Assembly: GCF_016862915.1 (NCBI RefSeq)
Contig: NZ_BONW01000039.1
Span: forward strand, 310,001 to 374,000
Direction: 5' to 3'
Source of the DNA: Plantactinospora endophytica
Lineage (GTDB): Bacteria > Actinomycetota > Actinomycetes > Mycobacteriales > Micromonosporaceae
Length of the DNA: 64,000 nucleotides
The position numbers were made by a program, and so were the translations under genes. The notes under the pieces are model-generated. The model saw only the letters and a program-made list of their open reading frames with translations. It had not been told where the DNA came from and did no database searches. Positions 32,144 to 54,060 of this stretch are shown in pieces. Position 1 is the stretch's first letter, and every line of letters starts with the position of its first letter.

Positions 32144-33391
32144 ATGAGCGTTCTGCCAGGCGATGCTCGATCGCCCCGCCGGGTGGTCGTCACCGGGCTC
32201 GGCGTGGTGACCAGCATCGGGATCGGGGTCGAGGAGTTCCTCGCCGGGCTGCGGGCGGGTCGGAGCGGGGTCAAGCCGATCACCGCGTTCGACACCACCG
32301 GGTTCGCGCACGCCAACGGGTGCGAGATCACCGACTTCGACCCGGCCCGCTGGCTGCACCACGTCGACCCGGCGCAGCTCGGCCGGGCGAGCCAGCTCTC
32401 GGCCGCCGCCGCCGGCATGGCGGTCGCGGACGCGGGCATGTCCGTCGAGGCGCTGCGGTCCCGCCGCGCGCTGGTGTCGGTGGGGACCACCGACGGCGAG
32501 TCGCACGACCTCGACCAACTGGTCGGGGTGCAGGTCGACCGGGGTGCCGAGCACTTCGACCCGGTCGTCGCCCGCCGGGTCCCCGCCGGCCGCCTCTCGT
32601 CGAGCATCGTCGCCGAACTCGGGCTGACCGACGTCGAGGCGGTGACGATCCCGACCGCCTGCGCGGCCGGCAACTACGCCGTCGGGTACGGCTTCGACGC
32701 GATCCGCTCCGGGGACGTGGAGGTGGCCCTCTGCGGCGGCGCCGACGCGCTGTGCCGGAAGACCTTCACCGGCTTCTACCGGCTCGGCACCATCGCCCCG
32801 GAGGCGTGCCAGCCGTTCGACCGCAACCGCAAGGGCATCCTCACCGGTGAGGGCGCCGGCATCCTGCTGATGGAGAGCCTGGACTCGGCGCGGGCCCGGG
32901 GCGCGCGGATCTACGCGGAGGTGCTCGGCTACGGGCTCAACTGCGACGCGTACCACCCGGTCGCGCCGGACCAGAACAGCATCGCCCGCTGCATCGAGCT
33001 GGCCCACCGCAACGCCGGGGTGAAGCCGGGCGACATCGACTTCATCTCCGCGCACGGCACCGGTACCAAGGCGAACGACGTGACCGAGGCCGGCGCGATC
33101 CGGCAGGTCTTCGGACAGTGTCCGCCGCGAACGGTCTCGATCAAGGGGATGATCGGGCACACCATGGGCGCGGCCAGCGCGCTCGCCTCGGCGGCCTGTG
33201 CGCTCGCCATCACCCACCGGTTCATCCCGCCGACGATCAACCACGTCGAGACCGACCCCGAGTGCGGGCTCGACTGCGTGCCGAACGAGGCGCAGGAAGC
33301 CGACCTGCGGGTGGTGCAGAACAACGCGCTCGCCTTCGGCGGCAACAACGCGGTGCTGATCCTCGGCAGGTACGACGAGGTGGCGCCGTGA
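32144..33391 (+). CDS. Beta-ketoacyl-ACP synthase 1 (KS, intact active site)
   Basis: This 415-residue FabF/type II PKS-like ketosynthase has a complete triad: nucleophile in PTACAAGNYAVG (Cys173), HGTGTKAND and GHTMGAASA, with the supporting Lys in SIKGMIGH. It should catalyse decarboxylative Claisen condensation on an ACP-bound chain. RBS GAGGCGAG precedes ATG 32144. Its stop overlaps the next GTG by 4 bases, coupling it to KS2. NCDAYHP after the gatekeeper region is shared with KS2, suggesting they arose by duplication. Whether it initiates or elongates cannot be told from sequence alone. Confidence 0.93.
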   Translation: MSVLPGDARSPRRVVVTGLGVVTSIGIGVEEFLAGLRAGRSGVKPITAFDTTGFAHANGCEITDFDPARWLHHVDPAQLGRASQLSAAAAGMAVADAGMSVEALRSRRALVSVGTTDGESHDLDQLVGVQVDRGAEHFDPVVARRVPAGRLSSSIVAELGLTDVEAVTIPTACAAGNYAVGYGFDAIRSGDVEVALCGGADALCRKTFTGFYRLGTIAPEACQPFDRNRKGILTGEGAGILLMESLDSARARGARIYAEVLGYGLNCDAYHPVAPDQNSIARCIELAHRNAGVKPGDIDFISAHGTGTKANDVTEAGAIRQVFGQCPPRTVSIKGMIGHTMGAASALASAACALAITHRFIPPTINHVETDPECGLDCVPNEAQEADLRVVQNNALAFGGNNAVLILGRYDEVAP

Positions 33392-34530
33392 CCGCGCTGG
33401 TGGTGGGAATGGGTGCGGTGGCCAGCATCGGCGGCAGCACCGTCGAGTTCTTCGACTCGCTCTGCGCCGGCTACAGCGGACTGGCCGAACTGCGCGGCTT
33501 CGACCGCAGCCGCTATCGGGCGCAGCACGCGTACGAGATCGACGACCGGCCGGGGCCGGGCCGCGACGAGACCCTGCGGGCCAGCCGGTGGCTGGAGCAG
33601 GCGGTCGGGGCGGCACTGCGGGACGCCGGCCTGGACGACGACCTCGCCGACACGCCGGTACTGGTCGGCACGACCCTGCGCGAGCTGCGCTCGGTCGAGC
33701 TGAGCTGGCGCGACGGCGTACCGTTCGACGTGCGCGACCTGCACTTCGGCACCGCGCTGGCGAACCGGTTCGGGGCCACCGACACGCACACCGTGGCCAA
33801 CGCCTGCTCGGCCTCGCTCTACACCCTCGGGCTCGGCATGGACCTGCTCGACGTCGGCGCCGCCGACACCGTGGTGGTCGCCGGGGTGGACACCATCACC
33901 GAGAGCACCTACGGGCTGCTCGACCGCTGCTACCCGGAGGCGCCCGAGCAGGTCCGGCCGTTCGACCGGGACCGCCGGGGCATGCTCCAGGGCGAGGGCG
34001 CGGTCGCGGTGGTGCTGCGCCGGGAGGCGGACGGGCCCGGAGCCGGGCACCGGCACGCCCGGGTACGCGGCGTGGCGATGAACTGCGACGCCTACCACCC
34101 GTCGGCGCCGGACGCCAAGAGCATCGCGCTGGTCACCCGGGAGGCGCACCGCCGGGCCGGGATCGAGCCGGCCGACGTCGACCTGTTGATGCTGCACGGC
34201 ACCGGGACGGCGCTGAACGACGAGGCGGAGGCGCAGGCCGTCCGGGAGGTCTTCTCCGGGGTCACGCCGTCGCCGTGGATGACCGCGATCAAGTCGATGA
34301 CCGGGCACACCGCCGGCGCCTCCGGGCTGCACAGCCTGGTGGTGGCGGTGGAGACGCTGCGGTCCGGGGTGGTGCCGCCGATCCTCGGCCTGGACAACCC
34401 GATCGACGAGGTCGAGGGCTTCCGACTGGTACGCGAGCACGCCGAGCTGGCCTCCCTGCGGGTCGCCCAGGTGGACTCGTTCGGCTTCGGCGGGCTGAAC
34501 GCCGTCGCGATCGTGGAGAAGGTGTCCTGA
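33388..34530 (+). CDS. Beta-ketoacyl-ACP synthase 2 (KS, intact active site)
   Basis: This 380-residue ketosynthase starts at GTG 33388, overlapping the KS1 stop. The triad is present: VANACSASLYTLG (Cys140), HGTGTALND and GHTAGASG, with Lys in AIKSMTGH. The N-terminal part is shorter than in KS1 (about 33 fewer residues before the Cys). It is followed with a 1-base stop/start overlap by a ketosynthase-fold protein lacking the Cys. KS2 and that protein are therefore natural candidates for a KS/chain-length-factor-like heterodimer; this pairing is inference from position. Confidence 0.92.
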   Translation: MTALVVGMGAVASIGGSTVEFFDSLCAGYSGLAELRGFDRSRYRAQHAYEIDDRPGPGRDETLRASRWLEQAVGAALRDAGLDDDLADTPVLVGTTLRELRSVELSWRDGVPFDVRDLHFGTALANRFGATDTHTVANACSASLYTLGLGMDLLDVGAADTVVVAGVDTITESTYGLLDRCYPEAPEQVRPFDRDRRGMLQGEGAVAVVLRREADGPGAGHRHARVRGVAMNCDAYHPSAPDAKSIALVTREAHRRAGIEPADVDLLMLHGTGTALNDEAEAQAVREVFSGVTPSPWMTAIKSMTGHTAGASGLHSLVVAVETLRSGVVPPILGLDNPIDEVEGFRLVREHAELASLRVAQVDSFGFGGLNAVAIVEKVS

Positions 34531-35522
34531 TGGCTGCGGTGGACGTGGTGGTCAGCGGGGTGGGTGTGGCGGTCTCCGGGATCGCCGGCCCCGACGACCT
34601 GCTCCGGCGTACCCCGGCCGGTGCCCAGGGGGACGACCCGGCCCGCCGGCTCACCGGCAAGGGACTGCGCTACAAGGACCGGGCCACCCGGCTCGCGCTC
34701 TGCGCCGGGCGGGACGCGCTGGCCGACGCCGGGCTGCTCAACGACCCCGGGCTGACCGTGCCGAGCGAGACCGTCGGCGTGGTGGTCAGCTCGAACTACG
34801 GCAACGTCGACACCATCTGCGACACCGTGTCGACGATCGCCGCCGAGACGTACGTCGGGTTGAGCCCGATGGCCCTGCCGGCCACCGCCAGCAACGTGAT
34901 CGCGTCCTGGCTGGCGATCTGGTTCCGGCTGCGCGGCGCCAACCTGACCATGTGCAACGGGCCGACCTCCGGCCTCGACGCGGTCAACTGGGGGCGGCTG
35001 CTGGTGCTGGCCGGCCGGGTGGACCGGGTGCTGGTGGTCGGGGTCGAGCCGGCGAACGCGCCGGTCCGGCACCTGGTCAGCGGCGGTCGGAGCAACGGCG
35101 ACGACGACCTGCGGCTCTTCGACGGTGCCGCCGCACTGCTGTTGGAGTCGGCGGCGGCAGCCCGGGACCGGGGCGTCGAGGCGCTCGCCGAACTCGGCCC
35201 GTACGCCCGCAAGGCGGACCAGCCGGCGGCGGTGGCCTCGATCCGGCGTACCGACCCGCGTCCGGTGGACATGTGGTTCGGCGCGGGCGCGGGCGGGCCG
35301 GCCGGGATGACCGAGCAGACCAGTTACGACCTGACCGCGTACCACGGGCACTGCTCCGGGGCGCTCGGCGTGCTCCAGTGTGTCGCCGGCACCGCCTGGT
35401 TGAGTGGGCACGACCGGGGTGCCGTGCTGGCCAGCGCCGACGGCGACGGCTCGGACGCGGCGGCGGCGCTGCTGCTCACCGCCGGTACCCGGCCCGGACC
35501 GGCTGCCGGAGACCGGCGATGA
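34530..35522 (+). CDS. Ketosynthase-like protein with degenerate active site (A)
   Basis: The 330-residue protein keeps the thiolase fold and part of the KS sequence. Where a KS has TACASG it reads CNGPTSGLDAV, placing Thr146 at the nucleophile position. The HGTGT motif is missing, although a GHCSGALG segment aligns with the third motif. It is about 60-80 residues shorter than a normal KS. It should therefore be unable to condense by itself and more likely serves as a chain-length-factor-like partner. TGATG overlap with KS2 upstream and ATGA overlap with the hydrolase downstream tie it to the same transcript. Confidence 0.85.
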   Translation: MAAVDVVVSGVGVAVSGIAGPDDLLRRTPAGAQGDDPARRLTGKGLRYKDRATRLALCAGRDALADAGLLNDPGLTVPSETVGVVVSSNYGNVDTICDTVSTIAAETYVGLSPMALPATASNVIASWLAIWFRLRGANLTMCNGPTSGLDAVNWGRLLVLAGRVDRVLVVGVEPANAPVRHLVSGGRSNGDDDLRLFDGAAALLLESAAAARDRGVEALAELGPYARKADQPAAVASIRRTDPRPVDMWFGAGAGGPAGMTEQTSYDLTAYHGHCSGALGVLQCVAGTAWLSGHDRGAVLASADGDGSDAAAALLLTAGTRPGPAAGDRR

Positions 35523-36472
35523 GCACCTCCGCGCCGCCGAGGACGGGCCGGCCCTCGGTGCGGCGTTCCGGGGTACCGGTGCGGTGCCGGCGACCCGGGG
35601 TCGGGGCGCGGCCGGTGCGTACCCTGCTGCTGCACGGGCTGGGCAGCAGCCGGGCGATCTGGGACCGGTTCGAGTCGTGGGCGCCGGAGTGGCTGGAGCT
35701 GTGGGACGCCGAGCTGCCCTGGACGAGCGTCGGCGACGGCGGCTGGAGCCACCAGCCCGACGCCACCGGCTGGGCGGCACAGGCGTTGGCCGGTGTCGAC
35801 GGCGGGGCCGACCTGGTGGTGGCGCACTCGTTCGCCGCGAACACCCTGCTGGAACTGCTCGGCCGGGCCGGCGCGCCGGGCGCGGCGGAGTGGACCGGCA
35901 CGGCGGGCGAGCCCGAGGCGGTGCGGCCGGCGATGGTGATGGCCCCGGCGGCTCCGGCCCGGCTGCCGGTACCGCTGCCCCGGGCGGTGGTGCTGGTCTC
36001 GCCGTTCTACCGGCCGGCCGTCGCCGACTTCGACTGGGCGGCGATCGACTTCTACCTCAACGACTTCCACCGGATCCTCGAAGAGGGCATCCGGGTCAGC
36101 GCCCCGGCCGGACTGCCCGCCGAGGTACGCGCCGCGATGGGCGAGCGGGTACGCGAGCGGATCGGCCCGTACGGCTGGATGCGCTTCTTCGACGCCTACC
36201 TGCGTACCCCGTTCCTGCCCGTCGCCGACCTGGCGCTGCCGCTGCTGGTGATCTCCGGCGACGGCGACTTCGCCGCCCGGCCCGGTGACGGACGGGCGCT
36301 CGCCGACGCGGCGCCGAACGGCCGGTACGCGCTGCTCGCCGACTGCGGCCACTTCGCGATGGCCGAACACCCCGACCGGTTCGCCGCCCTGGTGGCGGAC
36401 TTCGCCCACCCGCTGTCGCCCCCCGACGCAATCCCGGACCCGATCCTCGACACACACCTGGAGCGCACGTGA
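35519..36472 (+). CDS. Alpha/beta hydrolase (candidate thioesterase or acyl hydrolase)
   Basis: This 317-residue protein has an oxyanion region LLLHGLGSSRAIWDRF and a nucleophile elbow reading VVAHSFAAN (Ser104; the usual G-x-S-x-G is relaxed). An acid follows in VISGDGDFAARPGD and a His in DCGHFAMAEHPDRF. The first 35 residues are Arg/Pro-rich. The catalytic Ser-Asp-His set appears complete. In a fatty acyl/polyketide operon it could edit or release acyl chains, but similar folds also do other hydrolysis. The ATG at 35519 overlaps the preceding stop. Confidence 0.82.
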   Translation: MSTSAPPRTGRPSVRRSGVPVRCRRPGVGARPVRTLLLHGLGSSRAIWDRFESWAPEWLELWDAELPWTSVGDGGWSHQPDATGWAAQALAGVDGGADLVVAHSFAANTLLELLGRAGAPGAAEWTGTAGEPEAVRPAMVMAPAAPARLPVPLPRAVVLVSPFYRPAVADFDWAAIDFYLNDFHRILEEGIRVSAPAGLPAEVRAAMGERVRERIGPYGWMRFFDAYLRTPFLPVADLALPLLVISGDGDFAARPGDGRALADAAPNGRYALLADCGHFAMAEHPDRFAALVADFAHPLSPPDAIPDPILDTHLERT

Positions 36473-37458
36473 ACTCGACGACCCTGGCACCCCGTCCCGT
36501 CCTCGAACCACTCGCGGACGGTGTGACCCGCGTGGACCTGCGGCCCCGGTACGAGGGGTCCAACATCTGCACCTGGATCGGCTTCAAGCACGTCAACTAC
36601 CTGGTGGAGGAGGCCGTCCTCGACCACCTGCGGCAGCGCGGCTTCGCCCCCGGCAAGCTCTACGAGCGGCACGGGCTCTGCGTCGACGTCGTCGACATCG
36701 ACAGCCGGATCACGCACGCCTTCCACATCGACGACGTGGCGACCGCCGAGGTCCGGCCGCTGCCCGGCGACGCGCTCGCCTTCGCGGTGGAGATCTCGGT
36801 CGACGGCAACCCGCCGGTCAAGGCGGTCTCCGCCAAGGTCCGGGTGGAGCTGCGGCTCGACCCGCACGGCCACCCGGCCGAGCCGGTACCGGCCGAGCTG
36901 GCCCCGTACGCGGTGGCCCGGCTGGGCCAGGCGCCGGTCAAGGTGACCTCGCCGGCCGCCGCCGGCCCGGCCCCCGAGGGCGACGTGCTGGCCGGGCTGA
37001 CCGCCGGCCGCAACGCGTACGCCTGGAAGTGGCGGATCCCGTACTTCTACTGCCACTTCACCGAGCGGATGCAGATGTCCGGCTACCTGCGCCAGATGGA
37101 GGAGGTCGTCGACCTCTTCCTGGCCGACCGGGGCGTCTCGATCAAGCGGCTGCTGGACGAGCAGGACTGGATCCCGGTGGTGCCGCACTCCCGGATCACC
37201 ATCCTGGACGAGGCGCGGATGGAGGAGGACCTCTACACCGTCTTCACCGTCGAGAACGTCTTCAAGCGGCTCACCTACACCTCGCGGATGGACTGCTACG
37301 TGCTGCGCGACGGCATCCTGGTGCCGACCGCGACCGGTCGGATCACCCACGGGTACGCGGTGATCGAGAACCGTCGCGACTGGAGCCTGGTGGACTTCGA
37401 CGACCGTCTCGCCGGCGCGCTGGAAGGTGCGCCGGCTGCTCCGAGTACGCGTCGATGA
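36469..37458 (+). CDS. Double-hotdog thioesterase/dehydratase-like protein
   Basis: The 329-residue protein appears to contain two hotdog-type halves: GSNICTWIGFKHVNYLVEEAVLDHL in the first, and FYCHFTERMQMSGYLRQMEEVVD plus RITILDEARMEEDLYTVFTVENVFKR in the second. The second half resembles acyl-CoA/ACP thioesterase-like hotdog proteins. No FabZ-type HFPG motif is present. Candidate roles are acyl-ACP thioesterase (supplying free acid to the acyl-AMP ligase downstream) or a dehydratase. The sequence does not decide. GTG 36469 overlaps the hydrolase stop by 4 bases. Confidence 0.72.
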   Translation: MNSTTLAPRPVLEPLADGVTRVDLRPRYEGSNICTWIGFKHVNYLVEEAVLDHLRQRGFAPGKLYERHGLCVDVVDIDSRITHAFHIDDVATAEVRPLPGDALAFAVEISVDGNPPVKAVSAKVRVELRLDPHGHPAEPVPAELAPYAVARLGQAPVKVTSPAAAGPAPEGDVLAGLTAGRNAYAWKWRIPYFYCHFTERMQMSGYLRQMEEVVDLFLADRGVSIKRLLDEQDWIPVVPHSRITILDEARMEEDLYTVFTVENVFKRLTYTSRMDCYVLRDGILVPTATGRITHGYAVIENRRDWSLVDFDDRLAGALEGAPAAPSTRR

Positions 37459-38630
37459 CCGGCGTCGCCATCACCGGCCTCGGTGTCGTCACGTGCCACG
37501 GCAGTGGTACGCGCGCCCTCTGGGACGCGATGATGGCGGCACCGGTTACCGACCCGGGTCCCGTGCCGGACCCGTACGCGAACATGGACGTGCCGGTGGT
37601 GCAGGGCGTACCCGACGCCCACCTGCCGGCCGAGTCCCAGGCGCTCGCCCGGACCTCCCGGCTGGCGCTGACCGCGGTCGACGAGGCGCTCGCCGACGCC
37701 GGCCTGCCACCGGGCGGGGCGGCGACGGCGAGGTCCCGGATCGGCCTGGCCCTGGGCACCTGCATGGGTGACGCGGGCCTGCACGAGCAGTGGCGGGCCG
37801 ACGGCGGCAAGCCGGTCGCCCGGTTCACCTCGGCGCTCGGCGTCGCCTCGGAGATCGCCGACCGGCTCGGCCCGGTCAGCGTCGCCACCACGATCAGCAA
37901 CGCCTGCGCGGCCGGCGGCTTCGCCCTCGGTGCGGCGGCCGACCTGGTCCGGTCCGGCGAGGCCGACGTGGTGCTGGCGGTCGGGGCGGACGCGTACAGC
38001 CGGGTGATGCTGGCCTGCTTCAACCGGATGGGCGCGGTGGACCCGGTCCGGTGCCGTCCCTTCGACCTGCACCGCCGGGGTACGTCGTTCGGCGAGGCCG
38101 CCGGCGCCCTGGTGGTGGAGTCGGCGGAGCACGCCCGGGCCCGGGGCGCCACCGTGCACGCCGTGCTGGAGGGCTCCGGCTGGACCTGCGACGCCTACCA
38201 CCTGACCGCACCGGAGCCGGAGGGCACCCAGATCATCCGGGCGATGCGGGCCGCGCTGGACGCCACCGGCACCGACGGCGACCGGATCGGCTGCGTCCTG
38301 CCGCACGGCACCGGTACCCAGCTCAACGACGTGGTGGAGAGCCGGGCCCTGAACGAGGTGCTCGGCGCTGACGTGCCGCTCTACAGCCTCAAGGCGTTGA
38401 TCGGGCACACCGGCGGTGCGGCGGCCTCGGTCGCGGCGGTGGCGGCGGCGCTGATCCTGCGGCACCGTACCGTCCCGCCGAACGTGCCGATCGCGCAGCA
38501 GGACCCGGAGTGCCGGGTCTGGCTGCCGCAGGGCCTGACCACCCCGTTGGGGTCCGACCGGATCATGGTCAACGGGTACGCCTTCGGCGGCAACAACGTG
38601 TCGCTGGTGCTCGCGGGGGCCGGCGGATGA
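37455..38630 (+). CDS. Beta-ketoacyl-ACP synthase 3 (KS, intact active site)
   Basis: The 391-residue ketosynthase has a full triad: ISNACAAGGFALG (Cys151), PHGTGTQLND and GHTGGAAAS with Lys in SLKALIGH. It is more FabF-like than KS1/KS2 around TCDAYHLTAPEPEG. It overlaps both neighbours by 4 bases (ATGA), and the next gene is again a ketosynthase-like protein lacking the nucleophile. The pattern intact-KS followed by degenerate-KS therefore repeats. It should perform chain elongation; chain-length range unknown. Confidence 0.93.
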   Translation: MTGVAITGLGVVTCHGSGTRALWDAMMAAPVTDPGPVPDPYANMDVPVVQGVPDAHLPAESQALARTSRLALTAVDEALADAGLPPGGAATARSRIGLALGTCMGDAGLHEQWRADGGKPVARFTSALGVASEIADRLGPVSVATTISNACAAGGFALGAAADLVRSGEADVVLAVGADAYSRVMLACFNRMGAVDPVRCRPFDLHRRGTSFGEAAGALVVESAEHARARGATVHAVLEGSGWTCDAYHLTAPEPEGTQIIRAMRAALDATGTDGDRIGCVLPHGTGTQLNDVVESRALNEVLGADVPLYSLKALIGHTGGAAASVAAVAAALILRHRTVPPNVPIAQQDPECRVWLPQGLTTPLGSDRIMVNGYAFGGNNVSLVLAGAGG

Positions 38631-39784
38631 ACCGGGACGGAACCGGGGTGGTCGGCCGGCCGCCCGGGGCGGGCGCACAGGCGGGGCAGCTCGACAGTCT
38701 GTCGGCGACGGTTCCTCCGCTGGCCGGCCCGGGCCGGAACGGTACGGGCGCTCGCGTGCCAGGTTCGGTGGACCGGGTGCCGGGTCCGGTGCCGTCGGTC
38801 GGGCGGGTGCCGGGCCGGATGCCGCCAGCCGGCCAGGTCGTGGTCACCGGGATCGGCGTCTGCGCGCCGCCGGTGGACCGGCCGGCGGTCGATGTCGCCT
38901 GGTTCGACGTGCGCAGCCAGCTCGGCCGGCGCGGCTACAAGTACCTGCCGGCCGCCTGCCAGTACCTGCTGGTCGCCGGGCGGCACGCCCTCGACGACGC
39001 GGGCGACTGCCTCGACGGCGCCGCCGAGGAGCAGCGCGGGGTGGTGGTCGGCACCAACAACGGGGTGGCGGCGCTGCACGACGAGCAGGACCGCACCGTC
39101 ATCGCCGAGCACGCCGGCGAGCTGAGCCCGGTCACCGCGCCGTTCGGTGCGGTCAACGTGCTGACCAGCCGGCTGTCGATGGAGCACGGCTTCAAGGGGA
39201 TCAGCCTGACCCTGACCTCGCCGCTGGTCGCCGGGCTGGAGTCGGTACAGGTCGGGGCGCGGGCGTTCGCGGCCGGCCGGTCCGCCCTGCTGCTCGCCGG
39301 AGCGATGGAGCAGGCGGTGCCGGCCCCCGAGGCGGCGGCACCGGAGGAGGGCGCGGTGGTCTTCGTGCTGGAGCCGCCGGAGCAGGCGGCGGCGCGTGGC
39401 GCCACCGGCTACGGCCGGTGCGCGGTCCGCACCCTGCTGCTGCCGCCGCACGGTCTCGGTGCCGGCCCGGCCCGGCGCCGGTCCGCCGCCGTGCTCCGGG
39501 AGGCGGCACTGGCCCTCGGCGCCGACCAGGTCCCGGTGTACGCGCTGCTGGACGACTCACCGGTCAGCGAACTGGTGGCCGGGGCGGTACCGGCCGCCGT
39601 CGGCCCGGTGCGGGACGCCGGCCCGCCCGCCGCCGGCAGCCTCACCCCGATGCTCCGGCTGGCCGACCGGCTGCGGACCGCCGACGGGGACAGCCTGCTG
39701 GTCACGGCGGCCGGCACCGGAAACGTGGCGATGGTCCGGATCTGGCGTACGGCCGGATCGACGAGAAGGAGCGCGGGATGCTGA
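38627..39784 (+). CDS. Ketosynthase-like protein with degenerate active site (B)
   Basis: This 385-residue protein starts with about 70 Pro/Gly/Val-rich residues without structure (PGSVDRVPGPVPSVGRVPGR). A thiolase-fold core lacking catalytic residues follows: the nucleophile segment is LTSPLVAGLESVQVG, with Leu200 in the Cys place, and HGTGT and GHT are absent. Such proteins cannot form the acyl-Cys intermediate. A structural or chain-length-determining role beside KS3 is the best inference. ATG 38627 overlaps the KS3 stop by 4 bases. Confidence 0.83.
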   Translation: MNRDGTGVVGRPPGAGAQAGQLDSLSATVPPLAGPGRNGTGARVPGSVDRVPGPVPSVGRVPGRMPPAGQVVVTGIGVCAPPVDRPAVDVAWFDVRSQLGRRGYKYLPAACQYLLVAGRHALDDAGDCLDGAAEEQRGVVVGTNNGVAALHDEQDRTVIAEHAGELSPVTAPFGAVNVLTSRLSMEHGFKGISLTLTSPLVAGLESVQVGARAFAAGRSALLLAGAMEQAVPAPEAAAPEEGAVVFVLEPPEQAAARGATGYGRCAVRTLLLPPHGLGAGPARRRSAAVLREAALALGADQVPVYALLDDSPVSELVAGAVPAAVGPVRDAGPPAAGSLTPMLRLADRLRTADGDSLLVTAAGTGNVAMVRIWRTAGSTRRSAGC

Positions 39785-44367: not shown

Positions 44368-44377
44368 GGTGCCGACG

Positions 44378-45790: not shown

Positions 45791-46046
45791 CCAGCTCACC
45801 ACGGGGCTCGACAAGGAAGACCTGCGGCAGCTCATCGCCGACACCATCGACGTCGACCTCGCCGAGGTGACCGACGACGCGCACTTCGTCAACGACCTGG
45901 AGGTGGACTCCCTGATGGCTCTGGAGATCACCGTCCGGCTGGAGAAGCGGTACGGCGTCAAGATGGAGGAGAGCGAGCTGATCGCGGTCAGCACGCTGGA
46001 CAGCACGTACCAGCTCCTCGACGGCAAGCTGCGGGGCGGGTCGTGA
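45783..46046 (+). CDS. Acyl carrier protein 2
   Basis: This 87-residue ACP has NDLEVDSLMALEITVRLEKRYG with the phosphopantetheinyl Ser43 in VDSLMALE. It resembles fatty-acid-type ACPs more than ACP 1. It lies between the carboxylase and dehydratase genes, overlapping accC by 8 bases and the next GTG by 4. A second ACP within the same operon as ACP 1 suggests division between starter loading and elongation, or between two chains. Which ACP works with which ketosynthase is unknown. Confidence 0.92.
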   Translation: MSDQLTTGLDKEDLRQLIADTIDVDLAEVTDDAHFVNDLEVDSLMALEITVRLEKRYGVKMEESELIAVSTLDSTYQLLDGKLRGGS

Positions 46047-46423: not shown

Positions 46424-46918
46424 ATGTTCGGGGTGGCGCAGATCAGGAAGGTGGTGCCGCACCGGTACCCGATCCTGCTGCTCGACCGGGTGGTCGAGCT
46501 GGTGCCGGGCGAGCGGCTGACCGCGCTGAAGGCGGTGAGCTGCACCGAGTCGTGTTACGAGGGGCTCGGGAACGACTCCGCCGACCGCGACTACGCGTAC
46601 CCGGCGACGTTGATCGTGGAGTCCTGGGCGCAGGCGGGCGTACTGCTCGCCACCTGGGACAAGCCCAACCCGGACGTACTGGTCGGGGCCGTCGGGCTGG
46701 CCGGGGCGATCAACAACGTCAGTTTCGGTGGTCCGGTGTATCCGGGAGAGGTTCTGGAGCATCGGGTCCGGCTGACCAAGGTCCTCGGCGACACGGTGAT
46801 CCTCGAGGGCGAGACCGTGGTCGGGGACCGCACCGTGATGCGGGTCGGACAGTTCGTCGAGACCCAGCGCCCGGTGAGCGCGCTGCGTCCGGCGGAACCG
46901 GCCCCGGTGGCGGGATGA
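46424..46918 (+). CDS. FabZ-like hotdog protein lacking the catalytic His
   Basis: The 164-residue protein has the FabZ entry signature VPHRYPILLLDRV and keeps the acid in LIVESWAQ (Glu66). The HFPG loop is replaced by LGNDSADRDYAYPATL, and the position of the His (14 before the Glu) is Ser52. By itself it should be inactive. Mycobacterial HadAB and HadBC are known dehydratases in which one subunit supplies the catalytic residues and the other shapes the acyl tunnel, and this pair fits that idea. ATG 46424 directly abuts the preceding stop. Confidence 0.82.
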   Translation: MFGVAQIRKVVPHRYPILLLDRVVELVPGERLTALKAVSCTESCYEGLGNDSADRDYAYPATLIVESWAQAGVLLATWDKPNPDVLVGAVGLAGAINNVSFGGPVYPGEVLEHRVRLTKVLGDTVILEGETVVGDRTVMRVGQFVETQRPVSALRPAEPAPVAG

Positions 46919-46926
46919 GGAGCGAG

Positions 46927-47673
46927 ATGAGCGAGAACGGACGACGGGTCGCGCTGGTCAGTGGGGGATCGCGGGGTATCGGCCGGGCCGTGGTGGCCCG
47001 GCTCGCCGCCGACGGTTTCGACGTGGCCTTCTGCTACCAGGCGAACGCAGAGGCGGCCGAGTTGTCGGCCAAGGCGGCCCGGGAGGCCGGGGCGCGGGTG
47101 CTGACCCGGCAGGTCGACGTGGTGGACCTGGCCCAGGTACGCGACTTCGTCGGCGCCACCGAGGACGAGCTGGGCCCGATCGACGCGGTGGTGACGGTGG
47201 CCGGGGTGACCCGGGACCGGCCGCTGGTGCTGATGGGCGACGACGAGTGGCACGGTGTGCTGCGGACCAACCTGGACGGCACCTGGACGGTGTGCCGGTC
47301 CGCCGTCTTCGCGATGATGAAGCGGCGGCGCGGCGCGGTGGTGACCCTCTCCTCGGTCGCCGGGGTGGCCGGCAACGCCGGGCAGACCAACTACTCGGCG
47401 TCCAAGGCCGGCATCATCGGCTTCACCAAGGCGCTGGCCAAGGAGATGGGCCGGTACGGCATCCGGGCCAACGTGGTCGCCCCGGGCTTCATCGAGACCG
47501 ACATGACGTCCGGGCTCTCGCCCGCGGTGACCAAGGAGATGCTGGGCCGGATCCCGCTGGGCCGGTTCGGCCGGGCGGAGGAGACCGCCGACCTGGTCGG
47601 CTTCCTCGTCTCGGACCGGGCGTCCTACGTCACCGGCCAGGTCTTCCAAGTCGACGGCGGCATCGCGCTGTAG
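46927..47673 (+). CDS. FabG-type 3-ketoacyl-ACP reductase
   Basis: The 248-residue SDR has SGGSRGIGRAVVARL for NADPH binding, Asn in NLDGTW, Ser in TLSSVAG and the pair NYSASKAG (Tyr156, Lys160). It ends GQVFQVDGGIAL, as FabG does. It should reduce beta-ketoacyl-ACP to beta-hydroxyacyl-ACP. ATG 46927 follows AGGAG, but ATG 46915 overlaps the preceding stop (ATGA) and would add four residues. With the dehydratase pair, the FabI-like enzyme and the ketosynthases it completes the reductive cycle. Confidence 0.92.
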   Translation: MSENGRRVALVSGGSRGIGRAVVARLAADGFDVAFCYQANAEAAELSAKAAREAGARVLTRQVDVVDLAQVRDFVGATEDELGPIDAVVTVAGVTRDRPLVLMGDDEWHGVLRTNLDGTWTVCRSAVFAMMKRRRGAVVTLSSVAGVAGNAGQTNYSASKAGIIGFTKALAKEMGRYGIRANVVAPGFIETDMTSGLSPAVTKEMLGRIPLGRFGRAEETADLVGFLVSDRASYVTGQVFQVDGGIAL

Positions 47674-47705: not shown

Positions 47706-48467
47706 ATGGCGGTGCGCCGCACCCCACGGTTCTACTTCAGCCTGCGCAGCCCGTACTCCTGGCTCGCCTACCGGGACCTGCACGAGCGGTACCCGGAACT
47801 GGTGGCCGAGCTGGACTGGGTGCCGTTCTGGGAGCCGGACGAGCACAGCAGCCGGCTGCTGGCCGAGGCCGGCGGCGAGTTCGTCTACACCGCGATGTCC
47901 CGGGCCAAGCACCTCTACGTGCTCCAGGACGTCCGGCGGCTCACCTCGGCGCGCGGGCTGGCGTTCGCCTGGCCGGTCGACCGGGAGCCGGTCTGGGAGA
48001 TCCCGCACCTGGGCTACCTGGTGGCGGCCCGGCACGGCGCCGGGCCGGCCTACCTGGAGCGGGCGTACCGGGCCAGGTGGCAGGAGGGGCGGAACATCTG
48101 CGACCGGGCGACGGTCGCCGAGATCGCCGCCGAGCTGGAGCTCGACCCGGCCGAGCTGTCCGGGGCGGCCGACGATCCCGAGGTACGCCGTCAGGGCGTC
48201 GGTGCGCTGCTCGACATCTACTCCGACGGCGTCTTCGGGGTGCCGTTCTTCGTGCACGGCTTCGACCGGTTCTGGGGCGTGGACCGGCTGGCCGAGTTCG
48301 CCGCCTCGGTGGCCGCGAAGCGTGCCCCGGCGCGGCCGGCGGCCGTTGCCGCGCCGTTGCCCGACAACGGATCGACGGCAGAGCCGGACAGCGGGCCCAC
48401 GGCGGAGCCGCTGCTGGTGGGTGCGCCGGGGCGGACCGACGAGGGGCATGCCGGCGGCTGCGGCTGA
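47706..48467 (+). CDS. DsbA/HCCA-isomerase-fold protein, candidate acyl-chain isomerase
   Basis: This 253-residue thioredoxin-fold protein belongs to the 2-hydroxychromene-2-carboxylate isomerase/GST-kappa group: FYFSLRSPYSWLAYRDL at residues 8-24 (Ser in the SPYS position), RALG-like central helices and GVFGVPFFVHG with the cis-Pro near residue 180. There is no CxxC redox motif at the N-terminus, so it is not a disulfide oxidase. Known members isomerise double bonds, sometimes with glutathione. Here cis/trans or positional isomerisation of a polyene is a reasonable inference. RBS GAGGAG precedes the ATG. It is the last gene of unit 1. The C-terminal 45 residues are low complexity. Confidence 0.78.
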   Translation: MAVRRTPRFYFSLRSPYSWLAYRDLHERYPELVAELDWVPFWEPDEHSSRLLAEAGGEFVYTAMSRAKHLYVLQDVRRLTSARGLAFAWPVDREPVWEIPHLGYLVAARHGAGPAYLERAYRARWQEGRNICDRATVAEIAAELELDPAELSGAADDPEVRRQGVGALLDIYSDGVFGVPFFVHGFDRFWGVDRLAEFAASVAAKRAPARPAAVAAPLPDNGSTAEPDSGPTAEPLLVGAPGRTDEGHAGGCG

Positions 48468-48505
48468 GCCGGCGTACGGGTCACGGTCGGCGACCGAGCC
48501 CGCCG

Positions 48506-48531
48506 ATATAGCCCGAATATGGACGTCGATC
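48506..48531 (+). promoter_or_regulatory. 11-bp-phased repeat element in front of unit 2
   Basis: ATATAG (48506) and ATATGG (48517) are 11 bp apart and followed by CGTCGATC. The 26 bases align with the elements at 31649 and 59337. It lies about 70 bases upstream of GTG 48600, in the only gap between the isomerase-fold gene and the acyl-AMP ligase gene. Confidence 0.6.
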
Positions 48532-48599
48532 GTACGGTCTGCCACGGAAACGCCGATGGCGCGGTGGACGCCGTACCGGAGAAGGCCGGGGAAGCAAAC

Positions 48600-50483
48600 G
48601 TGTCCGAGTGGGGAAGCATCGTCGAGGCGGTCCGGCACAACGTGGCCGGATCGCCGGAACGGCAGGCGGTGGTGTTCTGCCGTGGTGCGGGGGAACGGTT
48701 CGTCGAGACGTCCCTGACGTACGCCGATCTCGACCGGGTGGCCCGGGCCACCGCGCGCTGGCTGGGCCGGCGGTGCCGGCCGGGCGACCGGGCGCTGCTG
48801 CTGTATCCGACCGGTCTGGAGTTCGTGGCCGGCTTCCTGGGCTGCCTCTACGCGGGCGTGATCCCGGTGCCGGTGCCGCTGCCGGCGAACTACCGGCACC
48901 ACGCCGACCGGACCAGCGCGATCGCCCGGAACGCCGACGTGGCGGCAGTGCTGACCGATCCGGCGAACCTGCGCGCGGTCGACGACTGGATGCTCCAGGA
49001 GGGACTCGACCACCTGGCCTTCGCAGCCACCGACACCGCCGCCCCCGGCGTCGTCATCGGCGCGGACGCCCCGCCCGGAACCGGAACGACGACCGGGGAC
49101 GCCGGGCCGACTACCGGGGACGCTGGGGCGGCGGGCGGCGCTGGGCCGGTGCCGGACGGGCCCTGGCGGCCGTATCCGGCCCGGCCGGACGACATCGCGT
49201 TTCTCCAGTACACCTCGGGCTCGACCAGCGACCCGAAGGGTGTGATGGTCACCCACGGCAACGTGCTGCACAACATCGGCTCGGTGCACCGCACCCTGGG
49301 CTGGACCGACCAGACCCGGTTCTGTAGCTGGCTGCCGCTCTACCACGACATGGGCCTGATCGCGATGCTGATCGCACCGCTGCTGCTCGGCAGCACGGCG
49401 GTACTGATCCGGCCCAACGACTTCCTCAAGCGCCCGCACCTGTGGCTGGAGGCGATCGACAGGTACGGCGCCGAGGTGGCCTGCGCGCCGAACTTCGCGT
49501 ACGACCTCTGCGCGCGGCTGCTCACCGACGAGCAGGTAGCCGGGCTGGACCTGTCCCGCTGGAAGTACGCCTGCAACGGTGCCGAGCCGATCGACCCGGC
49601 CACCCTGGACCGGTTCGCCGCCCGGTTCGCCCCGGCCGGCTTCCGGTACGAGTCGTTCCTGCCGACGTACGGGCTGGCCGAGGCGACGCTCTGCGTCACC
49701 GGGGCCCGCCCGGCCGGCCGCCCCGTCACCGCACACGTCGACCCCGTCGAACTGGCCCGGGATGTCTTCGCCCCGCTGCCCGACGGCACCTCGGCCGGAC
49801 TGGCCCTGGTCGGCAGCGGCCGGGTGAACGCGCTGGACGTGCGGATCGTCGACCCCGGCACCTGCGCCGTACTGCCGGACGGGCGGGTCGGCGAGGTGTG
49901 GATCCGGGGCGGCAGCGTGACCCGGGGCTACTGGGGGGATCCGGTGGCGACCCGGCGGGCCTTCGGCGCGGTGACCGCCGACGGCGACGGCGGTTTCCTG
50001 CGTACCGGTGACCTCGGCACCTTCGACGACGGCGAGCTGTACGTCACCGGCCGGATCAAGGAAATGATGATCGTGCACGGCCGCAACCTCTACCCGCACG
50101 ACGTGGAGCGCGAGGTCCGGGAGGTGGCCGAGGCGTTCGCCGGGCTGCCCTGCGCGGTCTTCTCGGTGCCGTCGCCCCGGGAGGAGATCATCGTCGTGCA
50201 GGAACTCCGGACCCGGGGTCGGGACGCGGCCGAGGTCACCGGGCTGGCGGCGGCGGTGAAGGCGACCCTGAGTCGGATCCTCGGGGTGCGGGTGGCGAAC
50301 GTCGTCTTCGTCCGGGTCGGCCAGGTCCGGCGGACCACCAGCGGGAAGATCCAGCGCACCATGATGCGGGAACTCTTCGTCTCCGGGGTGCTCGACGCGA
50401 CGTACGAGGAACTCGATCCGGAGGTCCGGGACCGCTACCGGCCCGCGCGGGCCGGGCTGCCGGTGCCGGCCGGGCGGGGGTGA
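48600..50483 (+). CDS. Fatty acyl-AMP ligase (FAAL)
   Basis: The roughly 627-residue adenylate-forming enzyme belongs to the FAAL type: LQYTSGSTSDPKGVMVTH (P-loop), LPLYHDMGLIAMLIAPLLLG, FLPTYGLAEATLCV, and the C-terminal KEMMIVHGRNLYPHDVE. It activates a free fatty acid as acyl-AMP and passes it to an ACP, not to CoA. A Gly/Thr/Pro-rich insert (about residues 155-180) is unusual. GTG 48600 behind GGGGAAG was chosen because the in-frame ATG 48519 lies inside the conserved promoter element and has no RBS. The partner is probably ACP 3 in the same unit. Confidence 0.9.
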   Translation: MSEWGSIVEAVRHNVAGSPERQAVVFCRGAGERFVETSLTYADLDRVARATARWLGRRCRPGDRALLLYPTGLEFVAGFLGCLYAGVIPVPVPLPANYRHHADRTSAIARNADVAAVLTDPANLRAVDDWMLQEGLDHLAFAATDTAAPGVVIGADAPPGTGTTTGDAGPTTGDAGAAGGAGPVPDGPWRPYPARPDDIAFLQYTSGSTSDPKGVMVTHGNVLHNIGSVHRTLGWTDQTRFCSWLPLYHDMGLIAMLIAPLLLGSTAVLIRPNDFLKRPHLWLEAIDRYGAEVACAPNFAYDLCARLLTDEQVAGLDLSRWKYACNGAEPIDPATLDRFAARFAPAGFRYESFLPTYGLAEATLCVTGARPAGRPVTAHVDPVELARDVFAPLPDGTSAGLALVGSGRVNALDVRIVDPGTCAVLPDGRVGEVWIRGGSVTRGYWGDPVATRRAFGAVTADGDGGFLRTGDLGTFDDGELYVTGRIKEMMIVHGRNLYPHDVEREVREVAEAFAGLPCAVFSVPSPREEIIVVQELRTRGRDAAEVTGLAAAVKATLSRILGVRVANVVFVRVGQVRRTTSGKIQRTMMRELFVSGVLDATYEELDPEVRDRYRPARAGLPVPAGRG

Positions 50484-52342
50484 CCGGGATGCGCTATCCG
50501 GCCTTCGCCCTCGCCGAACACCTCGACCACGGCCTCGGCGACCCCCGCGACCCGGGCCGGGCGGCCTCGTTCGCCCGCTGCGTAGAGCTGGACAGCCGGG
50601 AGGAGTTCCCGGCGGAGATCTGCGCCGAGCTGGACCGGCTCGGCCTGCCCCGTTGGTACGTGCCGACCGAGTACGGCGGCGAGCTGCGCAGCTACGAGGA
50701 ACTGCTGCACGCGGTACGGATCCTGGCCCGCCGGGACCTGACGGTGGCGATCGGCCACGGCAAGACGTACCTCGGTGCGGTCTCCGCCTGGGTGGGCGCC
50801 ACCCCGGAGCAGGCCCGCCGGGTCGGTGCCGAGGTGCTCGCCGGCAGCGTGATCTCGCTGGCGCTTACCGAGCGGGAGCACGGCAGCGATCTGCTCGCCG
50901 GTGAGGTCTCGGCGGTGCCGGCCGGCGACGGCTACCGGGTCGACGGCGAGAAGTGGCTGATCAACAACGCCAGCCGGGGGGACCTGGTCTGCGTACTGGC
51001 CCGGACCGAACCGGCCGGCGGCACCCGGGGCTTCAGCCTGCTGCTGGTCGACAAGCGACGGCTCGCCCCCGGCACGTTCCGCTGCCTGCCCAAGGAACGC
51101 ACCCACGGGGTACGCGGGGCCGACATCAGCGGGATCGCCTTCACCGGCGCCGAGGTGCCGGCCGAGGCGCTGCTCGGCCCGGCCGGCGCCGGCCCGGAGA
51201 TCGTGCTGAAGAGCGTGCAGCTCACCCGCACCATGTGCGCGGCGATGTCGCTCGGCCTGGCCGACCAGGCGCTGCGACTGGTCCTCGACTTCGCCACCGC
51301 ACACCGGCTGTACGACCGGCCGCTGGTAGACCTGCCGCACGCCAACCGCACCCTCACCGAGGCGTACGTCGACCTGCTGATCGGCGAGGCCACCAGTGTG
51401 CTCACCGCGCGCGGCATCCACGCCACCCCCGACGAGCTGAGCGTCACCTCGGCGATCGCGAAGTACCTGGTGCCGACGATGATGGACCGGGCCATCCCAC
51501 GGCTGGGCCAGGTGCTCGGGGCCCGCGCCCTGCTCACCGAAGACCACGCCGACGGGCTGTTCCAGAAGATCGAACGGGACCACCGGATCGTCGGCATCTT
51601 CGACGGCAACACCCTGGTCAACCTGAACACGCTGGTGAACCAGTTCCCCGGCCTGGTCCGGGGCTACCGCCGGGGCGTCGCCGATCCGGGGCTGACCGAC
51701 ACGGTCGACCTGGCCCGGCCGCTGCCCGACTTCGACCGGAGCCGGCTCGCGCTGCTGTCCCGTACCGGGTGCAGCGTGGTGCAGCAGTTCCCGGTCGCCG
51801 CCGCCGAGCTGCTGGACCTGGTCGAGGCGGGCGTCGCCCCGCCCGCCCTGGCCGTACAGGTGGAGACGCTGGCCGACCTGATCGACGGGCTGCACGAGCG
51901 GATGGCGGCGTACCGGCCTTCGCCCCGGCAGGTGCCGGCCGAGGCGTTCGCGCTGGCCGGCCAGTACGCGCTCGCCTTTGCCGCCGCCGGCTGTCTGCAC
52001 CTGTGGCTGCGCAACCGGCACCGGCTGGCCGGCGGGGCGACCGGGCCGCTCTGGGCGGATGCCCGCTGGCTGCGCGCCTGCCTGCACCGACTGATCGGGC
52101 AGCTCCGGCCGGCCGGTGTCGCCGGATCCGCGCCGGACGACGACGGCGAGGACTACGACCGGCTGCTGCCGGACCTGCGCGCCCAGCACCGCGAGGGCCG
52201 ACTCTTCTCCCTGCTCCCGTCCCGGCTCGCCGAGGCGGGGACGCCACCGCCCGATCCGCCGTCCGAAACTGCCGGGCAACCCGATGAGCAGCCGTCCCGG
52301 ACCGCCGGGGCGGTTACCCAGCCTTCCGAGGTGGTCCGATGA
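50480..52342 (+). CDS. Acyl-CoA dehydrogenase-like protein 1
   Basis: This 620-residue protein contains the three ACAD domains (about residues 40-410). It has LALTEREHGSDLLAG for FAD/substrate binding and VNLNTLVN in the last helix. The catalytic acid, normally Glu in YEGT, is Asp375 in GIFDGNT. A helical C-terminal extension of about 200 residues is absent from beta-oxidation enzymes but seen in ACADs of lipopeptide clusters such as ramoplanin and friulimicin types, as I recall. It probably desaturates an ACP-bound acyl chain. The GTG at 50480 overlaps the FAAL stop; ATG 50489 is an alternative. Confidence 0.85.
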   Translation: MTGMRYPAFALAEHLDHGLGDPRDPGRAASFARCVELDSREEFPAEICAELDRLGLPRWYVPTEYGGELRSYEELLHAVRILARRDLTVAIGHGKTYLGAVSAWVGATPEQARRVGAEVLAGSVISLALTEREHGSDLLAGEVSAVPAGDGYRVDGEKWLINNASRGDLVCVLARTEPAGGTRGFSLLLVDKRRLAPGTFRCLPKERTHGVRGADISGIAFTGAEVPAEALLGPAGAGPEIVLKSVQLTRTMCAAMSLGLADQALRLVLDFATAHRLYDRPLVDLPHANRTLTEAYVDLLIGEATSVLTARGIHATPDELSVTSAIAKYLVPTMMDRAIPRLGQVLGARALLTEDHADGLFQKIERDHRIVGIFDGNTLVNLNTLVNQFPGLVRGYRRGVADPGLTDTVDLARPLPDFDRSRLALLSRTGCSVVQQFPVAAAELLDLVEAGVAPPALAVQVETLADLIDGLHERMAAYRPSPRQVPAEAFALAGQYALAFAAAGCLHLWLRNRHRLAGGATGPLWADARWLRACLHRLIGQLRPAGVAGSAPDDDGEDYDRLLPDLRAQHREGRLFSLLPSRLAEAGTPPPDPPSETAGQPDEQPSRTAGAVTQPSEVVR

Positions 52343-54060
52343 GCGTCGACACCGCTTCCGTGCCCGGCCAGGTCGCCGACGCCGGGGCCGAGCCCGACCT
52401 GGAGACGTACCTCGGGAATCCGCACGACCCGGCCAACCCGGTGAGTTTTCCGGCGGTGCTGGCCGCCGACGAGCGCGGTGAACTGCTCGCCGAGGGCGAG
52501 CGGGCGCTGGACGGGTACGGGCTGAACGCCGAGTTCGTGCCCCGGGCCCTCGGCGGCCGGTTCGACCGGGCCGACCGGCTGGCCCAGGTGCTCCGCGCGG
52601 TGTTCCGCCGCGACACCACCCTCGGGGTCGGCTACGGGGTGACCACGTTCATCGCCGCGACTCCGGTCTGGACCGACGGCACCGCGCAGCAGCGGCGTTG
52701 GATGGCCGACCTGCTGCTGCGGCACGGCAAGGCGTCCGCCGGCTACAACGAGCTGGCGCACGGCACCGACTTCAGCCGGGCCGAGCTGCGGGCCCGGCCC
52801 GCCGGGGACCACTACCGGGTGACCGGTCGCAAGGAGATGGTCGGCAACCTGGCCCGGGCGGACGCGGTGACCCTCTTCGCCCGCACCGACGACCGGCCGG
52901 GCAGCCGCAGCCACTCGCACCTGCTGCTGGACATGGCCGCGCTGCCGGCGGAGCACCGCCGTCACCTGCGCCGGTACCGCACGGCCGGGGTGCGTGGGGT
53001 GCTGCTCGGCGGACTGGAGTTCACCGACTGTCCGGTGCCGTCCGACGCGGTGGTCGGGGAACCCGGCGGTGCGATGGAGACGGTGCTGCGGGCGTTCCAG
53101 GTGACCCGGGGAGTACTGCCCGGGATGGCCGTCGGGATCGTCGACACCCAACTGCGTACGGTGCTGCGGTTCGCCCTCGACCGCCGGCTGTACGGGCTGC
53201 CGGTGGCCGAGCTGCCGCACGCCCGGACCACCCTGGTCGACGGCTTCCTGGACCTGCTGATCGGGGACTGTCTGGCCACCGTGGTCGCCCGGGCCCTGCA
53301 CCTGCTGCCCGACCAGACCAGTGTCTACAGCGCGGCGGTGAAATACCTGGTGCCGAAGCTGTTGCAGGAGGCGGCGCACCGACTCTCCGTGGTACTCGGT
53401 GCGCGGTCGTACCTGCGGGACGGCCCGTACGGGATCTTCCAGAAGAACCTGCGGGACCTGCTCGCCGCCACGCTCACCCACGCCAGCGCGGCAGTCTGCC
53501 AGGCGACGATCATCCCGCAACTGCCCCGGCTGGCCCAGCAGGGCTGGCGCTCCTCGCCGCCACCGCCGCCGGCCCTGTTCCGGCTCGGCGACCCGTTGCC
53601 GCCGCTGGACTTCGGCGCGCTCGGGCTCTCCGCCCGGGGGGTGGACAGCCTGACCGCCACGCTTCGCGGCTACCTCGCGGAACCGGGTGCCCAGCCGGCC
53701 GTCGCCCGGCTCTGCGGACTGTTCACCGCCGAACTCGACCGGCTCGCCGAGGCGTGCGCCGAGCTGCCGCCCCGGGACCGTACGGTGATCGCCGGCCGGC
53801 GCAGCTTCGACCTGACCGACCGGTACGCGACCGTACTGGCCGCCGCCGCCTGCCTCGGAGTGTGGCGGCACCAGCGGGACGACCCGTTCCTGGGGGACGT
53901 CCCGTGGCTGGCCGCCGCGCTGTCCCGGCTGGCCGGCCGGCTGGGTCTGCACCCGGGTACGGCACCGGACGGGCTGGAGCGACACCTCTACACCGAGCTG
54001 CTGGCGCGTCACCGGGACAACCGCGGCTTCGATCTCGTCAACCGGCGTCTGGCCGGCTGA
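52339..54060 (+). CDS. Acyl-CoA dehydrogenase-like protein 2, catalytic acid not conserved
   Basis: The 573-residue ACAD-fold protein is collinear with protein 1 (YNELAHGTDFSRAEL for the FAD loop; FQKNLRDLLAATLTH aligns with FQKIERDHRIVGIFD). The residue in the catalytic-acid position is His381. Alone it may not dehydrogenate. Mycobacterial FadE pairs form alpha2-beta2 enzymes in which only one subunit has the base, and this adjacent pair, linked by an ATGA overlap, suggests the same. FAD could be shared between the subunits. The C-terminal region also carries the long extension found in protein 1. Confidence 0.83.
   Translation: MSVDTASVPGQVADAGAEPDLETYLGNPHDPANPVSFPAVLAADERGELLAEGERALDGYGLNAEFVPRALGGRFDRADRLAQVLRAVFRRDTTLGVGYGVTTFIAATPVWTDGTAQQRRWMADLLLRHGKASAGYNELAHGTDFSRAELRARPAGDHYRVTGRKEMVGNLARADAVTLFARTDDRPGSRSHSHLLLDMAALPAEHRRHLRRYRTAGVRGVLLGGLEFTDCPVPSDAVVGEPGGAMETVLRAFQVTRGVLPGMAVGIVDTQLRTVLRFALDRRLYGLPVAELPHARTTLVDGFLDLLIGDCLATVVARALHLLPDQTSVYSAAVKYLVPKLLQEAAHRLSVVLGARSYLRDGPYGIFQKNLRDLLAATLTHASAAVCQATIIPQLPRLAQQGWRSSPPPPPALFRLGDPLPPLDFGALGLSARGVDSLTATLRGYLAEPGAQPAVARLCGLFTAELDRLAEACAELPPRDRTVIAGRRSFDLTDRYATVLAAAACLGVWRHQRDDPFLGDVPWLAAALSRLAGRLGLHPGTAPDGLERHLYTELLARHRDNRGFDLVNRRLAG

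Follow-up and report, generated by a model that had tools for sequence, protein, structure and literature searches.

Organization of the gene cluster

The window analyzed here is a 64,000-nucleotide stretch of contig NZ_BONW01000039.1 from the 9.68-Mb genome of Plantactinospora endophytica. Gene calls, family matches, and translations place a biosynthetic cluster at about 31.8 to 61.6 kb of the window, on the plus strand only, running from a gene for an acyl carrier protein (ACP) through that for SbnB. Judged by its gene content, on which membership rests, the region encodes a highly reducing type II polyketide synthase (PKS) of the cinnamoyl-lipid (CCNP) type beside a nonribosomal peptide synthetase (NRPS). 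It thus represents a variation on a natural-product cluster of known kind, and its chain-building enzymes appear to act as unequal pairs. A sequence-only reading of this DNA had proposed that the same logic, a catalytic subunit joined to a degenerate one in an obligate mixed complex, shapes the acyl chain throughout one pathway in three enzyme classes: the ketosynthases (KS), the dehydratases (DH), and the acyl coenzyme A dehydrogenases (ACAD). Residue conservation, gene neighborhood, natural fusions, and family matches were used to follow up this proposal.

Six KS-like genes are present. KS1 (positions 32144 to 33391), KS2 (33388 to 34530), and KS3 (37455 to 38630) are recognized by Pfam and NCBIfam and carry the catalytic cysteine as Cys173, Cys140, and Cys151, respectively. 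In KS-A (34530 to 35522, Pfam), KS-B (38627 to 39784, Pfam), and KS-C (40704 to 41882), the aligned column holds Thr146, Leu200, and Ser168. Two adjoining genes encode hotdog proteins of the FabZ family, DH1 (46043 to 46423; Pfam FabA, with some ApeI likeness below the cut-off) and DH2 (46424 to 46918; family matches, FabZ best). Farther downstream, a fatty acyl-AMP ligase (FAAL; 48519 to 50483, family matches) precedes ACAD1 (50480 to 52342) and ACAD2 (52339 to 54060), both assigned by Pfam and alignments, with Asp375 of ACAD1 and His381 of ACAD2 in the same aligned column. All of these KS and ACAD residues are those named by the sequence-only reading, and the gene calls and alignments bear them out.

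Relatives of the PKS were taken as the 18 best-scoring places from a KS-A search of 201 genomes, 181 of which had some KS match. A core recurs in these relatives, consisting of a FabG-type ketoreductase (46915 to 47673 in the window, family matches), DH1, DH2, KS1, KS-C, KS2, KS-A, an alpha/beta hydrolase (35519 to 36472; Pfam and synteny), a thioesterase-like hotdog protein (36469 to 37458; synteny and a weak Pfam 4HBT_2 match below the cut-off), and a DsbA-fold protein (47706 to 48467; Pfam DSBA and synteny). The exceptions are G060, which is cut by a contig end and has no KS1 and DH1 in view, G077, with the hydrolase and hotdog genes away from the core, and G066, with DH2 away from DH1. In six relatives (G009, G173, G023, G155, G085, and G098) the core is compact, in the order FabG-DH1-DH2-(ACP)-KS1-KSC-KS2-KSA-hydrolase-hotdog-DsbA, with no ACP detected in the compact locus of G098. 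In 15 of the 18 relatives, the gene immediately 5′ of KS1 matches an ACP. The window has the same arrangement with ACP 1 (31817 to 32083), an 88-amino-acid protein with a GADSL motif read from the translation. PADLOC returned no match for the hydrolase and hotdog proteins.

Probable ketosynthase pairs

The catalytic cysteine is invariant in KS1 (18 of 18 sequences), KS2 (19 of 19), and KS3 (11 of 11), counting the window's own copy here and in the KS and DH alignments that follow. The partners never have Cys in this column. KS-A has Thr in 15 sequences and Leu, Pro, Gly, and Asp once each (n = 19), KS-B has Leu in six, Met in two, and Trp, His, and Thr once each (n = 11), and KS-C has Ser in five, Pro in five, Arg in four, His in three, and Ala and Thr once each (n = 19). 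A column that lacks Cys and drifts in this manner is what one would expect to see in a chain length factor (CLF). Elsewhere KS-A is conserved, with 19 of 279 columns invariant, and KS-A, KS-C, and DH2 are present in all 18 relatives.

The best-matching PDB chains, adjacency, co-occurrence, and fusions together lead to the likely pairs KS1:KS-C, KS2:KS-A, and KS3:KS-B. KS1 and the KS-C profile find their best matches in the two chains of a single PDB entry, 6kxd_A (E value of 1.2e-167) and 6kxd_B (E value of 6.2e-109), which is taken here to be the Iga11:Iga12 complex of ishigamide biosynthesis. 6KXD has been called a typical KS-CLF complex. The present cluster differs from the ishigamide system in having three pairs, and the KS-A profile has 9s5h_C as its best PDB match. 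KS1 and KS-C adjoin in six of the 18 relatives, the compact ones, and not in the window. KS2 and KS-A adjoin in all 18 and form one in-frame reading frame, a natural fusion, in G179 and G026. The 10 relatives, of 18, that have KS3 are also those that have KS-B, and the two genes are side by side in each. In all three pairs, therefore, a partner without the cysteine is found beside its KS, for KS1:KS-C in the six compact relatives only.

The KS3 and KS-B genes are followed by a FabL-like enoyl reductase (ER) gene (39778 to 40689; NCBIfam FabL at 141.6 bits, below the cut-off, and alignment) with a Y-x6-K sequence, presumably the motif of such reductases. This ER was detected in nine of the 10 relatives with KS3 and in none of the eight without it, which suggests a reducing third elongation module. 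An ER is said to be absent from the gla cluster and other cinnamoyl clusters in PMC9381841, so the KS3/KS-B/ER module marks a variant of this cluster kind.

Probable dehydratase pair

DH1 keeps its His38 in 17 of 17 sequences, and DH2 keeps its Glu66 in 19 of 19. Together with the invariant KS cysteines and the partner columns, this shows that the intact and degenerate residues do not form a chance pattern. The column of DH1 Glu52 is mildly relaxed, with 15 Glu, one Asp, and one Gly (n = 17). The aligned His is absent from all 19 DH2 sequences, six of which have a His elsewhere, in a variable loop. The sequence-only reading was right that DH1 has His38 and Glu52 and that DH2 lacks the His; its replacement of that His by Ser holds only if 14 residues are counted back from Glu66. 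In the alignment, DH2 has an 8-residue gap opposite the His-bearing segment of DH1 and therefore lacks this stretch as a whole instead of carrying a substitution.

In G179 the two DH genes are fused. The profiles of DH1 and DH2 match the two chains of 6QSR, presumably ApeI:ApeP, with E values of 8.5e-11 for DH1 against 6qsr_A, FabZ being far ahead, and 0.0022, a weak match, for DH2 against 6qsr_B. As in the ApeI:ApeP type, one subunit has no catalytic His and its partner has it. The relaxation at Glu52 fits, rather than proves, a composite site to which DH1 would contribute the His and DH2 the Glu. HadAB was rejected as a precedent, as both DH proteins match the FabA/FabZ families. An AlphaFold2 model of DH2, built on four sequences, had a mean pLDDT of 56 and was too poor for structure-based residue alignment. 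An 843-amino-acid frame in G071 that touches ER and DH1 was rejected as a fusion, as KS-C and an ACP intervene in the gene order.

A scan of the genome collection with DH2 gave five loci, one of them close. This locus (L009, Plantactinospora mayteni, DH2 92% identical) was taken as the same locus as G003 and counted once. In G089 (locus L052), the FabG and DsbA-fold genes have an additional DH2-like gene beside them, encoded on the other strand.

Acyl coenzyme A dehydrogenases

Asp375 of ACAD1 aligns with the Glu of a solved ACAD, and Asp occupies this catalytic base column in 16 of 16 ACAD1 sequences. ACAD2 has His381 there and a Thr where ACADs of the isovaleryl type are taken to carry their alternative base. 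An acid base is therefore present in just one of the two adjacent genes, as in the ChsE type of steroid ACAD. An AlphaFold2 model of ACAD2 (mean pLDDT of 51, built on four sequences) was too poor for structure-based residue alignment, and Foldseek with this model returned an ACAD-type fold and nothing finer, from which no residue conclusions are drawn.

At the level of the class, 27 of 394 genomes match ACAD2 at an E value of ≤1e-45, the window's own genome included and single ACAD1-like matches counted, and 27 loci of 13 to 18 kb each were fetched from the 26 others. Thirteen of these loci have an ACAD1-ACAD2 tandem, in which the partner residue is His in 10, Thr in one, and Ala in one, and the partner is a fragment in one. 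One further locus has two ACAD1-like proteins (Asp/Asp), four have a single ACAD1-like protein, all with Glu, and nine have an ACAD2-like protein but, within the fetched stretch, no ACAD1 (seven His, one Pro, and one Gln). At the level of the family, 36 of 354 genomes match ACAD2 at ≤1e-70. The 24 further loci comprise 18 Asp/His pairs, one His-bearing ACAD2 without ACAD1 in view, one fragment, one pair with Asp in both members, one single protein with Glu, and two (G777 and G714) whose ACAD2 was removed by an overlap filter. The Asp/His tandem was seen in 16 pairs of the first ACAD alignments and in the 18 pairs from the further loci, and an Asp/Asp pair was seen in G422 and G610.

Among 35 sequences that are clearly ACAD2, 34 of them having ACAD1 in the stretch examined and with identities down to 37%, His381 is one of 49 invariant positions among 555 columns. 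This set was chosen after the residues had been seen, and it left out the full-length tandem partners of G494 (Thr) and G252 (Ala) as well as two fragments (G437 and G622) and all nine loci that lack ACAD1 in view. With G494 and G252 restored, His is found in 35 of 37 intact tandem partners, and 66 of the 555 columns are more conserved. Across all sequences labeled ACAD2, 42 of 48 have His. These counts do not describe a partner whose base position drifts freely, a yardstick chosen here rather than a published definition. Set against the drifting CLF columns, His381 looks selected, not decayed, and ACAD2 looks specialized rather than broken.

FAAL and the two ACADs belong to a block that occurs apart from the PKS. 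Eleven genomes with FAAL-ACAD1-ACAD2, namely G071 and 10 of the 13 class genomes that carry the tandem, were searched for a KS1-type ketosynthase, and nine of them had none at an E value of ≤1e-70. In two genomes without KS1 (G535 and G324), FAAL, ACAD1, ACAD2, a condensation domain, SbnA, and SbnB recur together. The block is hence separable, it may handle another acyl chain, and the notion of mixed complexes throughout one pathway is not borne out. In G071 (locus L044), FAAL and ACAD1 share one frame of 1,135 amino acids, resembling the FAAL-ACAD fusion of enduracidin Orf45 described in PMC9113097. Two loci with ACAD2-like proteins and no ACAD1 (L110 and L112, in G362 and G480) have aromatic-PKS-like surroundings, with PKS-type and polyketide cyclase genes and either phosphopantetheinyl transferase or FAAL genes adjoining.

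Interpretation and alternatives

Taken as a whole, the locus is probably a CCNP-type PKS with an NRPS that has three KS:CLF heterodimers, a one-site DH1:DH2 pair, a separable FAAL-ACAD block, and a specialized ACAD2. The heterodimers KS1:KS-C, KS2:KS-A, and KS3:KS-B would each have one Cys active site, with the CLF shaping the pocket, and DH1:DH2 would be an ApeI:ApeP-like heterodimer with a single composite site made by His38 of DH1 and Glu66 of DH2. The ketoreductase, the isomerase, and, with KS3:KS-B, the ER would complete the cycles; the order of the steps and the product are predictions from the gene set. FAAL-ACAD1-ACAD2 and the condensation domain would form a lipopeptide-initiation block, in which Asp375 would be the base of ACAD1, and ACAD2 would be a specialized ACAD with a selected His381 of putative function, not a decayed dummy.

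Several observations weigh against this interpretation. In the window, KS-C lies 7 kb from KS1. DH2 matches FabZ (E value of 5.1e-30) far better than it does 6qsr_B, and DH1 keeps both its His and its Glu in 15 of 17 sequences and could thus work as a homodimer. The ACAD1 and ACAD2 genes overlap by four bases, and ACAD2 lacks a Trp that ACAD1 keeps (Glu in 24, Gln in six, His in three, and Asp and Ala once each; n = 35), both of which would fit a heteromer. The tandem partners of G494 and G252 depart from His; these two score nearly equally as ACAD2 and as ACAD1 (187 versus 169 and 184 versus 162 bits), the other 35 reaching at least 313 bits as ACAD2, and by these scores they are distant and ambiguous. 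Of the nine ACAD2-like proteins without ACAD1, eight no longer have the final Asp of the flavin motif and may belong to another subfamily, which makes these loci weak evidence. Finally, no ring-oxidizing enzyme is among the genes annotated here, no search having been aimed at one, and an aromatic cinnamoyl ring, which is ortho-substituted in products of this cluster type, is therefore not certain.

It is possible, if short of probable, that ACAD1 and ACAD2 are two successive desaturases, acting at alpha,beta and then at gamma,delta, the second with His381 as its base and with no heteromer formed. This is how the two ACADs of lipopeptide clusters are read in the literature (PMC9113097 among the sources), and the conserved His in the base column agrees with it. 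The Trp lost from ACAD2 speaks against it, and no His-base ACAD was met in the literature, which was never queried for one by name. According to the same 2021 review, no mechanistic studies of such lipopeptide-cluster dehydrogenases had been reported (PMC9113097).

The proposal that KS, DH, and ACAD alike work as obligate heteromers in which a single subunit is catalytic is about equally possible, again short of probable. ACAD1:ACAD2 would then have one site, as do the ChsE steroid ACADs, described as heterotetramers (ChsE4-ChsE5 and ChsE1-ChsE2) with two ACAD genes and the catalytic acid in one subunit only. In that type, activity depends on the heteromer, and each dimer holds one flavin. The acid residue in ACAD1 alone, the 34 Asp/His tandems, the lost Trp, and the occupancy of the presumed alternative base position (33 Thr and two Ser in 35 ACAD2 sequences) favor it. 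Against it stand the His in 35 of 37 intact partners where CLF positions drift instead, the retention of Glu138, Asp144, Arg372, and Asp373 of ACAD2 in 37 of 37, the Asp/Asp pairs of G422 and G610, and the nine motif-altered loci of 27 without ACAD1 in the fetched stretch. In contrast to the ChsE enzymes, the second member of this putative heteromer combines a conserved His with a long C-terminal portion and lies in a lipopeptide-type cluster. One logic shared by every class of the pathway thus has support for KS and DH, where it was already published for this kind of pathway, and lacks it for ACAD.

It is unlikely that ACAD1, with its Asp, and ACAD2, with its conserved His and no Trp, a tandem that many actinobacterial clusters have next to FAAL genes, form a two-subunit acyl-ACP desaturase in which ACAD2 gives its His to a shared site. 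Decay of the KS and DH genes into functionless duplicates, suggested by their missing catalytic residues, is highly improbable given the occurrence of KS-A, KS-C, and DH2 in every relative, the positions conserved elsewhere, the natural fusions, and the matches to CLF and DH chains.

Comparison with known systems and neighboring genes

Genes for KS, ketoreductase, DH, ACP, and isomerase are clustered here with an NRPS, the isomerase being identified by Pfam DSBA and synteny only, and three KS/CLF pairs are present where CCNP-type clusters have two or three. PMC9381841 describes two or three KS/CLF pairs, the DHs GlaS/GlaT, and an isomerase in cinnamoyl-lipid clusters, with YsfB-C, YsfD-E, and YsfJ-K acting in turn, and 51 putative CCNP clusters are on record in PMC6510318. 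By gene set, the cluster resembles ysf (youssoufene) and gla (globisporamic acid) in its three KS/CLF pairs, gla in its two DH genes (GlaS/GlaT), these and the CCNP clusters (sky, cal, and kcn) in a ketoreductase, ACPs, and an isomerase, and the CCNP clusters in the NRPS neighborhood. It differs from them in the ER with KS3/KS-B, the acetyl-CoA carboxylase set, and the FAAL-ACAD1-ACAD2-condensation block. The DsbA-fold protein is perhaps a polyene cis-trans isomerase, a candidate role modeled on YsfG/GlaV. Cispentacin was considered as the closest kind and rejected, with matches to AmcF, AmcG, and AmcE all below cut-offs, no search having been aimed at an AmcH-type ligase.

In the aryl polyene cluster, according to PMC8041823, the dehydratases ApeI and ApeP form a heterodimer that has only one active site. 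With ApeO:ApeC, this cluster thus combines KS/CLF and a one-site heterodimeric dehydratase in one pathway, so that two of the three classes were already known together. It has one KS/CLF pair, a homodimeric KS, and Gram-negative hosts, in contrast to the present cluster, whose DH2 is also nearer to FabZ than to 6qsr_B. Compared by description, rotihibin, taromycin, and malacidin have the same gene set and context of FAAL with two ACADs; published accounts read these as two successive desaturases, in passages that do not mention base residues.

The remaining genes of the PKS part are a fused AccD-AccA carboxyltransferase (41886 to 43628; Pfam and NCBIfam) and, by family matches, the biotin carrier AccB (43621 to 44367), the biotin carboxylase AccC (44369 to 45790), and ACP 2 (45783 to 46046). 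The complete AccDA-AccB-AccC acetyl-CoA carboxylase set occurs in four of the 18 relatives, all of the same genus, and G077 has an AccDA match only. Downstream of ACAD2 lies a stand-alone condensation domain (54359 to 55921; NCBIfam), found near ACAD2 again in several relatives, followed by SbnA (59466 to 60566) and SbnB (60566 to 61582) of 2,3-diaminopropionate biosynthesis, both NCBIfam equivalogs above the cut-off. An ATP-binding cassette (ABC) transporter, read from the translation, is also encoded in the cluster. On the contig 3′ of the window, NRPS-module-like reading frames (positions 1974 to 12259 of locus L014), read by eye and from the FAAL and condensation matches of the relatives, continue until the contig stops, and the assembly therefore probably holds only part of the cluster. 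Outside it, an S-adenosylmethionine riboswitch (RF00162, 22977 to 23067, minus strand) lies upstream of an apparent amino acid ABC transporter operon, as read from gene calls.

Implications

These comparisons of sequences support unequal pairs for KS and DH, where they are known, and indicate that the ACADs behave differently. The analysis sorts the explained part of the locus, the KS:CLF and one-site DH heterodimers of polyene-type PKSs, from the unexplained ACAD2 family. It also offers a simple test for other intact/degenerate pairs, in which a drifting position suggests a dead partner and a fixed unusual residue suggests altered function. No description of the ACAD2 His or of an ACAD heteromer in lipopeptide clusters was met in the open-licence literature, the His never having been queried by name. 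If ACAD1 and ACAD2 did share one site, this would be a two-subunit desaturase distinct both from homomeric ACADs and from the dead-partner steroid ACADs, and the two successive desaturases of published accounts would be one enzyme. Its conserved His makes ACAD2, a candidate specialized enzyme, the more interesting part of the cluster and a useful lead.

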